NCBI RefSeq assembly: GCF_011040385.1 | Contig: NZ_JAAIKB010000006.1 | Coordinates: forward strand, 1-64,000 | Length of the DNA: 64,000 nucleotides | Direction of reading: 5' to 3' | Origin: Falsiroseomonas algicola | GTDB lineage: Bacteria; Pseudomonadota; Alphaproteobacteria; Acetobacterales; Acetobacteraceae | Part shown: positions 47,432 to 60,800 of the stretch, in pieces | Position numbering within the stretch: the first letter of the stretch is position 1 | Layout: each line of letters starts with the position of its first letter | Position numbers and translations under genes: made by a program | Notes under the pieces: generated by a model | What the model saw: only the letters and a program-made list of their open reading frames with translations | Database searches by the model: none | Told to the model about the DNA's origin: nothing

Positions 47432-47435
<4 letters not shown>

Positions 47436-48466
47436 CGTCCTCCTCCCGGAAGTTTCCGCGGATCGAAGGCATCCCGCACCGCCTCGCCCACGAAGATCAG
47501 CAGCGTCAGCACGCCGCCCAGCACGCAGAAGGCGGTGATGCCGAGCCAGGGGGCCTGGAGGTTGTTCTTGCCCTGCGACACCAGTTCCCCCAGCGAGGCA
47601 CTGCCCGGCGGCAGGCCGAAGCCAAGGAAATCGAGGCTCGCCAGCACCGTTACCGAGCCCGACAGGATGAACGGAAGAAACGTCAGCGTGGCCACCATCG
47701 CATTCGGCAGGATGTGGCGGACCATCAGCGCCGTGTCCGACACCCCCATCGCCCGCGCCGCCCGCACATAGTCGAGGTTCCGGCCCCGCAGGAACTCCGC
47801 CCGCACCACCCCCGTCAGCCCCATCCAGCTGAACAGCAGCAGGAAGACCAGCAGGGTCCAGAAGCTGGGCTCGATCACGCTGGCCAGGATGATCAGCAGA
47901 TAAAGCTGCGGCATCCCCGACCAGACCTCGATGAAGCGCTGGAAGCCGAGATCGACCCAGCCCCCGTAATACCCCTGCACCGCCCCCGCCGCGATGCCGA
48001 TCACCGAACTCACCAGGGTCAGCGAGAAGCCGAACAGCACGGATATCCGGAACCCGTAGATCACCCGCGCCAGCACGTCCCGCCCCTGGTCGTCCGTGCC
48101 CAGCCAATTCCTTGCCGAGGGCGGCGCCGGCGACGGCCGGCCGAGATCACGCACCACCGTGTCATGGCGGTAGGGAATGATCGGCCAGACCGCCCAGCCC
48201 CCGCGATCCGCGAATTCCTTCCGCAACTCCGGATCATGCCAGTCCATCGTCACCGGCAAGCCATCCGGCAGGACCTCCTCCTCCGCATAACCCACCACGA
48301 CCGGGAACAACCACTTCCCATCGACCCGCGCGACCAAGGGCCGGTCATTCGCAATACCCTCGGCAAACAAGGTCACCACGAACAACAACAGGAAAATCCA
48401 GAGCGACCAGAACCCCCGCCGATTGGCGCGAAAGTTGGCGAGGCGCCTGCGTGTGATGGGGGTCAT
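47432..48466 (-). CDS. yejE: Peptide/microcin C ABC transporter permease
   Basis: 344 residues. An N-terminal transmembrane helix (FWSLWIFLLLFVVTLFAEGIA) is followed by the extra periplasmic part typical of YejE (WLFPVVVGYAEEEVLPDG; HDPELRKEFADRGGW) and five further helices. The EAA loop RAARAMGVSDTALMVRHILPNA contacts the ATPase. WLGTDDQGRDVLARVIYG is the DppC/OppC-type signature. Start chosen at ATG 48466; the frame upstream runs into the hairpin region. Confidence 0.92.
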
Positions 48467-48477
48467 GGCACGGTCCC

Positions 48478-48533
48478 GCAGGGGGGCGTTGCCCCCCTGC
48501 ACCCCCCACCAGGAGGCAGCGGCCTCCTGGACC
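48478..48533 (+). repeat. Double-hairpin module, copy 1 (plus orientation)
   Basis: Stem 1: GCAGGGGGGC, loop GTT, GCCCCCCTGC (48478-48500). Spacer ACCCCCCA (48501-48508). Stem 2: CCAGGAGGC, loop AGCG, GCCTCCTGG (48509-48530), then ACC. The same layout recurs at 48606-48657, 60657-60713 and 60735-60793. Confidence 0.75.
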
Positions 48534-48543
48534 TCAGGCCTTG

Positions 48544-48591
48544 AACGCCGAAGGTGAGGGGGGCACTTCGGCCCCCCTCACCTTCGGCGTT
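48544..48591. repeat. Perfect 21-bp hairpin with a 6-base loop
   Basis: Arms 48544-48564 and 48571-48591 are exact reverse complements; the loop is ACTTCG. The arm begins AACGCCGAAGGTGAGG. With 21 GC-rich pairs this is far beyond what chance gives and stronger than needed for termination. It sits exactly between two inverted double-hairpin modules in the yejB-yejE gap. Confidence 0.85.
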
Positions 48592-48605
48592 GAAAGTTCC
48601 GGCGG

Positions 48606-48657
48606 GGTCCGGGGGGGGCCACGCCCCCCGGCGGGGGTGCGGGGGCAGCGCCCCCGC
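48606..48657 (-). repeat. Double-hairpin module, copy 2 (minus orientation)
   Basis: Read on the minus strand: stem 1 GCGGGGGC, loop GCT, GCCCCCGC (48657-48639), spacer ACCCCCG, stem 2 CCGGGGGGC, loop GTG, then GCCCCCCCCGG (two extra C), then ACC. Same order of parts as copy 1, pointing toward it. Confidence 0.7.
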
Positions 48658-48677
48658 GGGACCGCGCATGGCCGCCA

Positions 48678-49802
48678 TTACCGCCGCGCCTCGAAGTCGA
48701 TGCGGGGGTCGATGATGGTGTACATGACGTCGCCGACGATCTGCATGATCAGGCCGAGCAGGGTGAAGATGTAGAGGGTGGCGAACATGATGGGGTAGTC
48801 GCGGCGGATTGCGGCTTCGAAGCCCAGCAGGCCGAGCCCGTCCAGCGAGAAGACGATTTCTACCAGCAGGGCGCCGGTGAAGAGGATCCCGATGAAGGCC
48901 GCGGGGAAGCCCGCGATGATCAGCAGCATCGCGTTGCGGAAGACGTGGCCGTAGAGGACGCGGTTCTCGGTGTTGCCCTTGGCCCGCGCCGTGACGACGT
49001 ATTGCTTGCCGATCTCATCGAGGAAGCTGTTTTTCGTCAGCATCACGAGGCCCGCGAAACCGCCGATGACCAGCGCCAGGGTCGGCAGCGCCATGTGCCA
49101 GGCGTAGTCCGCCGCCCGCTGCCAGAAGGGCCAGGTTTCGGAGCCGGAGGTGGCGAGGCCGCGCAGCGGGAACCACTGCAGGAAGGAACCGCCGGCGAAG
49201 AAGACGACGAGCATGATGGCGAAGAGGAAGCCCGGGATCGCGTAGCCCACGAGGACGACGCCGGAGGTCCAGAGGTCGAAGCGCGATCCGTCCCGGACGG
49301 CCTTGCGGATGCCGAGCGGGATGGAGACGAGGTAGATGATCAGCGTGGACCAGAGGCCCAGGCTGATGGAGACGGGCATCTTCTCGATGATGAGGTCCAC
49401 CACCGGGCGGTCCCGGAACAGGCTGCGGCCGAAGTCGAAGGTCAGGTAGCCCGTCATCATCTCCTGGAAGCGGACATGGGCGGGCTTGTCGAAGCCGAAC
49501 ATGCGCTCGATGTCGCGGACGATGGCGGGATCGAGCCCCCGCGCGCCGCGATAGTTGCCGACCGGGCCGCCGCTGGATGAATCGCCGGAGCCCATGCCGG
49601 GGCCGGCGCTGCCGGGCTGCCGTGTCTCCCCGCCCCCTTCACCGGTGAGGCGGCCGAGCACCTGGCCCTCGCCGCGGAGTTCGGCGAGCATCTGCTCCAC
49701 CGGGCCGCCGGGGGCGAACTGCACCACGGCGAAGTTGATGAGGATGATCCCGAACAGCGTCGGGATCACCAGCAGCAGCCGGCGGACGATATAGGCGGCC
49801 AT
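48678..49802 (-). CDS. yejB: Peptide/microcin C ABC transporter permease
   Basis: 374 residues. The N-terminal helix [24 protein letters not shown] is the DppB/OppB form; a Gly/Ser-rich insertion follows (about 48-85), as in YejB, before [13 protein letters not shown] and five transmembrane helices. The EAA loop reads [26 protein letters not shown]. It forms the membrane channel with YejE. It starts 15 bp after the binding-protein gene. Confidence 0.93.
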
Positions 49803-60511: not shown

Positions 60512-60656
60512 AGTCGCTAAGTGACTTAAGCCGATTATGCCGTTTATGCGCGTTTAGCACCGTTTTCGAGGGGGTGCGGAGGTCGCAGAAGGGTGGCGGC
60601 GTGGTGAACATAGCCGGAACCCAAGGCGCGGCGCCAGCGCTTTCGCGGGCTACTTC

Positions 60657-60713
60657 GGGGGAGGCTTTGCCTCCCCCGGACCCCCACCACCAGGGCCGAA
60701 CCGGCCCTGGACC
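60657..60713 (+). repeat. Double-hairpin module, copy 3 (plus orientation)
   Basis: Stem 1 GGGGGAGGC, loop TTT, GCCTCCCCC (60657-60677). Spacer GGACCCCCACCA. Stem 2 CCAGGGCCG, loop AAC, CGGCCCTGG (60690-60710), then ACC. Matches the layout of copy 1. Confidence 0.75.
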
Positions 60714-60734
60714 GTCCTCGGTTTCATATCCGGC

Positions 60735-60793
60735 GGTCCAGGGTCGCCTTCGACCCTGGCGTGGGGGGTATCGGGGGGAGCGGCGCTCCCCCC
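60735..60793 (-). repeat. Double-hairpin module, copy 4 (minus orientation)
   Basis: Read on the minus strand: stem 1 GGGGGGAGC, loop GCC, GCTCCCCCC (60793-60773), spacer GATACCCCCCACG, stem 2 CCAGGGTCG, loop AAGG, CGACCCTGG (60759-60738), then ACC. Stem 1 lies 7 bases beyond the stop of the NIPSNAP gene and can end its transcript. Confidence 0.75.
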
Positions 60794-60800
60794 GGGCCGA

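Follow-up and report, generated by a model that had tools for sequence, protein, structure and literature searches.

A dispersed family of inverted hairpin modules with stem-matched third tracts, found between yejB and yejE of Falsiroseomonas algicola and at other gene ends of Acetobacteraceae

The yejB-yejE gap and its repeat family

The window, meaning the whole stretch of DNA analysed here, comprises 64,000 nucleotides of F. algicola (contig NZ_JAAIKB010000006.1, positions 1 to 64,000). Two genes for ABC transporter permeases of a peptide importer lie on its minus strand and are called yejB and yejE after an earlier note on this DNA and from gene order. The 211-bp gap between the yejB stop codon and the yejE ATG holds an inverted pair of double-hairpin modules around a perfect 21-bp hairpin, with the following features.

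47432..48466, minus strand: yejE, ABC transporter permease, the downstream gene
48467..48677, no strand: yejB-yejE gap with the element, 211 bp from the yejB stop to the yejE ATG
48468..48477, no strand: left outer arm, within the imperfect inverted repeat of 48468-48487 with 48648-48667 (85% complementary)
48478..48500, plus strand: hairpin 1 of the left module, a perfect 10-bp stem (48478-48487/48491-48500) with a loop of 3
48501..48508, plus strand: left spacer ACCCCCCA, G-rich on the minus strand, the proposed third strand of hairpin 1
48509..48530, plus strand: hairpin 2 of the left module, a perfect 9-bp stem (CCAGGAGGC/GCCTCCTGG) with a loop of 4
48531..48535, plus strand: tail ACCTC of the left module, a proposed short third strand of hairpin 2 (arm A,G,G,A,G opposite A,C,C,T,C)
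48544..48591, no strand: central hairpin, a perfect 21-bp stem (48544-48564/48571-48591) with a loop of 6
48604-48659, minus strand: right module as a whole, its stem 2 imperfect
48604..48608, minus strand: tail of the right module, ACCCC on that strand
48609..48631, minus strand: hairpin 2 of the right module, imperfect
48632..48638, minus strand: right spacer, ACCCCCG on that strand
48639..48657, minus strand: hairpin 1 of the right module, an 8-bp stem with a loop of 3
48658..48667, no strand: right outer arm, partner of the left outer arm (85% complementary)
48678..49802, minus strand: yejB, ABC transporter permease, the upstream gene

On re-reading the sequence, the modules and coordinates given in the earlier note were correct (the loop of the left stem 2 has 4 bases and not 3), and the perfect 21-bp stem that the note had placed between the facing modules was borne out. 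The central stems of other copies are of similar length and mostly of different sequence.

The minus strand of 48460-48670 (211 nt), folded as RNA, reached -176.7 kcal/mol against a mean of -118.0 for 200 shuffles, none of which was as low (z -13), and the element folded as DNA had a z of -10.7 against shuffles. Its outer arms are 85% complementary, and its G-rich strand carries several G runs. A search of Rfam over 48300-48800 gave 19 matches at E <= 10, none of which reached a gathering score. No terminator-like site was found at yej, and neither strand of 48467-48677 contains a GTAG or CGTC tag.

The earlier note had suggested that the element belongs to a repeat family and had asked for a covariance-model search of the genome. 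That search revealed other copies, and the claim is strongly supported. BLAST with the element gave 45 matches in the host genome and matches in each of the 14 other members of the genus. A covariance model built from a single module gave at least 145 host matches at E <= 0.01 (scoring covered the best 150 of 10552 candidates) and matches in 40 of 80 genera of Acetobacteraceae, the host's included. The host matches group into at least 113 loci, which are the best-scoring part of a longer candidate list and are biased to high-scoring copies. A 400-kb host sample outside the window held five module loci at E <= 0.001, two of which (C44:319896 and C55:319734) are absent from the 113, so that 113 is an undercount. 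Mixed-core module types in the family include GGAGAGGGG and GGGGAAGG.

The window itself holds a second copy, at 60656-60794, that was missing from the earlier note. It lies at a convergent gene junction, and in both of its modules an arm A stands opposite a spacer A.

60656..60715, plus strand: left module of the second element, E 3.6e-06, stem GGGGGAGGC, spacer CCCCCACCA
60733..60794, minus strand: right module of the second element, E 1e-07, stem GGGGGGAGC, spacer CCCCCCACG

Among the matches listed, all 32 module pairs lying within 600 nt in the host have the same inward order. Nine are spaced by 11-12 nt, one by 30 nt, and the rest by 61-70 or 83-93 nt. A central hairpin of 20-25 perfect bp occurs in 19 of the 22 wide pairs, and its sequence differs in nearly all of them. 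The nine pairs spaced by 11-12 nt (for example L027, L031, L033, and L043) form a compact class without a central hairpin, and the stem-2 tails of compact pairs are frequently ACCATCGT.

A spacer that mirrors its stem

Where stem 1 of a module departs from a plain run of G, the spacer that follows mirrors the 3' arm of that stem. The correspondence was tallied in 132 of 139 distinct arm-spacer types, namely those with GGG in the arm, a spacer of at least three C and 6 nt, and strict Watson-Crick stems. An arm G stood opposite a spacer C in 709 of 748 cases, and the 152 arm A faced a spacer T 75 times, A 52 times, C 20 times, and G 5 times. When spacers were permuted among types of equal length, A or T faced an arm A in 84.5 +- 4.6 cases compared with the observed 127 of 152, and none of 2000 permutations scored as high. 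The types are related by descent, and such shuffles therefore overstate significance; the controls of register and of a second set are stronger. In the register scan, which trims ends differently from the tally and thus counts 145 cases rather than 152, an arm A stood opposite A or T in 122 of 145 cases at the predicted register and, with a shift of one base, in 44 of 137 and 37 of 140. Two to four bases off, there were 2 to 9 matches per register (under 10%). The scan included 24 distinct mixed cores. Read in the antiparallel, direct-repeat sense, the same comparison gave 15-32% wherever a register held at least 74 cases; two sparse registers gave 16 of 47 and 7 of 16. The second set consisted of 59 types from other genera that had not been seen before, drawn from 29 module loci of the family-wide model search and from 40 places hand-picked among the listed matches. 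Here, 60 of 65 cases agreed in register, and a shift of one base lowered the agreement to 8 of 59 and 7 of 74.

The tail that follows stem 2 is likewise related to its arm, with 310 code matches against 243.6 +- 6.4 after permutation (none of 2000 as high) and, in the second set, 237 against 190.4 +- 4.8 (none of 1000 as high). Leaving aside 9 of the 77 stem-2 arms, which start with neither CC nor CT, the number of A directly behind the first two arm bases recurs at the start of the tail: a single A in 34 of 35 arms, two A in 9 of 13, and three A in 5 of 5. Of the 15 arms that lack such an A, however, 11 are followed by a tail that opens with one or two A all the same.

Such a mirror, with G for a G-C pair and A or T for an A-T pair, is, at the level of the letters, the purine-motif (reverse Hoogsteen) triple-helix code. 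As a statistical rule of the family, third tract and purine arm correspond in antiparallel register as G.GC, A.AT, or T.AT. Hairpin 1 of the yej copy is consistent with the code yet uninformative because its spacer tract is pure C and its stem pure G/C.

Other uses of the spacer were considered and rejected. In 48 inverted pairs, the A/T positions of the spacer match the arm of their own hairpin in 72 of 81 cases and that of the partner module in 11 of 161, which argues against pairing with the partner. A direct-repeat reading, in which the spacer would take part in an alternative, attenuator-like hairpin, fails in that 94 informative types comprise 74 mirror, 4 direct, and 16 tied cases. A pyrimidine-motif triplex, which can form in RNA, would not accept A. 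With A opposite A in 52 of 152 cases, nearly as often as T (75), the spacers fit a purine third strand and not a pyrimidine one, and a pyrimidine motif made by the C-rich strand or by RNA was dismissed.

The stems themselves co-vary. The 127 distinct sequences among 140 aligned matches show 334 two-sided changes, with G-U in 4 of 2012 cells and other mismatches in 25 of 2012, in an alignment that was fitted to the structure; the G-U count comes from model matches in which G-U was allowed, as strict Watson-Crick sets bias pairing upward. The near absence of G-U, together with the triplex code, points to a structure of DNA rather than a signal in RNA. From these comparisons of sequence, we infer that the third tract may fold onto its hairpin as a triplex.

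Gene ends, changing junctions, and how the element may act

Genes were called with a crude codon-usage model; the context was usable for 109 of the 113 host clusters, one of these 109 lacking a right-hand gene. Not one of these 109 best-scoring host loci lies inside a gene. Convergent junctions hold 53 of 108 loci, compared with 16 of 179 gaps of at least 50 bp in a 464-kb sample made up of the window and 20 stretches of 20 kb at even spacing (odds ratio 9.8, p 2e-14), and divergent junctions hold 4 of 108 loci compared with 51 of 179 gaps. The copies adjoin stop codons. At convergent junctions, 86 of 106 stop distances are within 30 nt, and 38 of 51 co-directional copies lie no more than 30 nt from the upstream stop codon. 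Convergent gaps shorter than 130 nt measure 59-85 nt from stop to stop in 27 of 30 cases, just over one module. Among nine single modules of one subtype found by BLAST, five start 0-1 nt past the stop codon of a gene in the same sense, one has no modelled upstream gene, and three have an upstream gene in the opposite sense. The element occupies only 4 of the 47 convergent junctions in the sample and would therefore be an optional boundary rather than a general terminator. Where single modules lie between co-directional genes, neither orientation is favored (16 versus 18), and a one-way "transcriptional diode" was rejected on this ground.

The proximity to stop codons and the very stable RNA fold are what one would expect of an RNA-level 3'-end element, similar to a BIME or REP, whose mRNA hairpins stop 3' exonucleases or aid termination and whose mirror tract is incidental or serves another use. 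However, only 4 G-U cells alongside 334 two-sided changes are unusual for RNA helices, and the register-specific spacer code is not predicted by such an element. In addition, runs of at least five T in 8 nt beside the modules number 0 of 75 on one side and 2 of 75 on the other and, with no terminator-like site at yej, a U-run intrinsic (Rho-independent) terminator was rejected. The excerpted text of Holder et al. (2015, PMC4666352) further states that purine triplexes do not form in RNA. We regard an action through RNA as unlikely.

The history of individual junctions bears on whether the element is mobile. The earlier note had allowed for the gap being conserved, ordinary leader DNA, which is improbable in light of the relatives. 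Named genomes supplied 80 yejB loci, 9 of them without YejE. In the 71 relatives with both genes, the gap measures -4 to 12 bp in 44, contains the element in 15, and is long without the element in 12. On a tree of YejB plus YejE with 72 rows of 81 (9 lacking YejE), the element is present in 16 and requires at fewest 6 changes, at least 4 of them forced. In Roseomonas sp. CECT 9278, the element has ATGA on both flanks and the sisters have ATGA overlaps; the filled yej site of Falsiroseomonas has GTGA and ATGA, and its sisters one RTGA. Two yej sites from distant parts of the tree thus carry RTGA on either side of the element (L090 versus L106, L092, and L098; L080 versus L086), in keeping with what would be an insertion with a 4-bp duplication. 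MITEs are recognized by terminal inverted repeats and a target-site duplication of constant length; RTGA flanks of this kind were seen at these two yej sites only.

Separately from these filled sites, yejB-yejE gaps of 727-924 bp (L095, L109, L119, L120, L125, L127, L139, and L153) contain a long extra stretch that looks coding and similar among them; they belong to Roseococcus, Rubritepida, Rhodovarius, and relatives.

Two further junctions were followed through the genus, at genes that we take, from reading their translations, to be gluQ, livF, and prfC. The gluQ/livF junction has the element in genomes G000 and G004, with a module after gluQ at a contig edge in G005 (3 of 15), and not in G006. 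The prfC junction has it in G000, G006, and G004 (3 of 15). Neither junction conserves the element across the genus. A second repeat, CCCTCCCCCGC..GCGGGGGAGGGTYGGGGTGGGGG, replaces it at both the gluQ and prfC junctions of G013 (L289 and L303), and by reading, neither repeat occurs in the 180 nt inspected at the prfC junction in 11 other genus genomes. The second repeat has the class II order of a triplex motif, and its T or A stand at positions that the code permits. It has 43 host matches with at most one mismatch in the G-rich half (for example L345:1501-1523 in G000). Of the 15 genus genomes, 13 contain it, and some copies form inverted pairs that lie close together.

The recurrence at the yej junction, the RTGA flanks at two distant yej sites, and the turnover at gluQ and prfC would all suit a selfish mobile repeat similar to a MITE or REPIN, which an unknown transposase would move by acting on its folded single strand and whose insertion is merely tolerated at gene ends. 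However, a search for Y1_Tnp, the RAYT/IS200-type transposase, found it in none of the 15 genus genomes, with matches in 5 of 14 known genomes as a control, and across the family it occurs in 4 of 40 genera with the module and 3 of 40 without; a RAYT/IS200 mobilizer was rejected accordingly. Moreover, the genes need both RTGA copies for their stop and start codons, so that the duplication may be selected, and spread alone leaves the enrichment at convergent junctions over other gaps of at least 50 bp unexplained. A purely selfish repeat is thus, in our estimate, improbable.

Quasipalindrome correction, the switching of template between the arms of an inverted repeat, keeps such repeats perfect by mutation. 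Upkeep of this kind without selection would produce concerted pair changes, a near absence of G-U, and the perfect central stems of 20-25 bp that differ in sequence in nearly all wide pairs (19 of 22 have one). However, template switching copies inverted or direct repeats, and it is not known to produce mirror repeats with A-to-A/T freedom in one register. Since the known mutational routes would yield inverted or direct repeats rather than mirror ones, the third tract is the best evidence for structural constraint, and we consider mutational upkeep a very remote prospect. A G-quadruplex or other G-rich structure, in which the G tracts matter and not a triplex, draws on the several G runs but does not predict A or T at the mirrored spacer position opposite a single arm A and is scarcely credible.

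The reading that we prefer, and to which we give about an even chance, is that the yej feature belongs to a compound element dispersed in Acetobacteraceae, which is built of class I intrastrand triplex motifs and acts as a gene-end boundary. Each module is a pair of hairpins, each with an adjacent short tract that would be its third strand. On the G-rich strand this tract lies 5' of its hairpin, which is the class I order, and each module would hold two such motifs. Where the G-rich strand is single, as at a replication fork or around a travelling RNA polymerase, it may snap into hairpins clamped by their third strands. The folded DNA would then form a two-way boundary at gene 3' ends that stalls polymerase and separates neighboring, often convergent, units. 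At yej, the element would have interrupted a gene overlap of 4 bp and may weaken the coupling of YejB and YejE synthesis. The dispersed family, its architecture, the co-variation of three tracts, the location at 3' ends, and the recurrence at the yej junction are direct observations, and the location at 3' ends fits a boundary role. The polymerase block, the boundary, and any effect on YejB and YejE are what we infer from them.

The strongest facts against a triplex boundary are the rarity of the element at convergent junctions, its turnover, and the E. coli data. As far as the excerpted text of Holder et al. goes (PMC4666352), promoter and terminator assays of the E. coli triplex motif were negative, in vivo DMS footprinting gave no stable triplex, and no triplex signals came from the double-stranded form.

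Intrastrand triplex motifs of bacteria are long known, yet no function has been agreed on, and their folding into triplexes in cells is an open question, the one in vivo footprint cited having seen none (PMC4666352, in the part drawn on). That the third strand varies along with its stem, obeying the triplex code in a single register, suggests on comparative grounds that a three-stranded state may be under selection. The family also offers exact controls, in the form of matched versus scrambled third tracts, and a natural site between convergent stop codons, which makes the old question directly testable. More broadly, and only tentatively since we lean against it, selection may read a DNA triplex code across some 40 genera, triplexes rather than RNA hairpins may mark gene-end boundaries, and triplex repeat families may replace each other at one junction.

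Comparison with known systems

Intrinsic bidirectional terminators are likewise hairpins between convergent stop codons; however, the element lacks a U-run in all but 2 of 75 modules. The RIME and ABC mosaic elements of Rhizobium and Sinorhizobium are alphaproteobacterial intergenic mosaics with palindromes and resemble the element in this respect, a likeness drawn by description only. REP, REPIN, and BIME sequences with RAYTs are short dispersed palindromes that form inverted dimers with structured spacers and lie mostly downstream of genes, as does the element (Di Nocera et al. 2013, PMC3733652, as excerpted). However, the window copy has no GTAG/CGTC tag, and no RAYT-type transposase was found in the genus; ACCGTC adjoins some other copies. 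According to the excerpted text of the same paper, CGTC repeats are missing in Acetobacteraceae (PMC3733652). The earlier note's idea of a mobile REP- or MITE-like unit therefore stands as regards dispersed short palindromes and inverted dimers outside genes and falls as regards a strict REP (Y1_Tnp in 0 of 15 genomes, no tag in the gap); that the yej element is a classical REP is not supported.

Among open-licence papers, searched in their main text, none reported repetitive extragenic palindromic or intergenic hairpin repeats for Roseomonas, and none linked Acetobacteraceae with triplex DNA. Lichenicola cladoniae is a member of Acetobacteraceae. RepRanger counted 1,369 REPs in that species (PMC12306157), and no mention of the element was found in the excerpted parts of the RepRanger paper and of a stem-loop survey (PMC2267715). 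Among the open-licence papers found for triplexes with compensatory change, only Holder et al. (PMC4666352) deals with triplex motifs of bacteria.

The closest likeness is to the intrastrand triplex motifs, also named PIT elements, BoxC, or TM-ECO. Earlier work on such motifs is said to have been done by Hoyne and Maher. As the excerpted text of Holder et al. describes them (2015, PMC4666352), these motifs join a hairpin and an adjacent G-rich third strand on one strand by the purine-motif code, as the element would. A triplex motif is there defined by three stems, each 6-15 nt long, and by loops of 1-6 nt, and the order third strand, purine arm, loop, pyrimidine arm is named class I (PMC4666352). 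By our reading, hairpin 1 and its spacer would form about 4 to 10 triplets, only some types reaching 6, and the tail of hairpin 2 is shorter. The pattern of TM-ECO, CCCTCNCCC-N3-6-GGGNGAGGG-N3-GGGNGAGGG, occurs 0 times without mismatch in the host, and 2 of the 15 genus genomes have a single occurrence each; with this count and the class I order of the element, identity with TM-ECO/BoxC was rejected. Both are dispersed as intergenic copies, sometimes in inverted pairs. However, in the part of the paper drawn on, TM-ECO is a class II motif (Y-R-third) of highly conserved sequence (PMC4666352), whereas the element is of class I order (third-R-Y), two per module. Unlike TM-ECO, the element has variable stems with a third strand that follows them, modules inverted around a long central hairpin, and a place at the 3' ends of genes.
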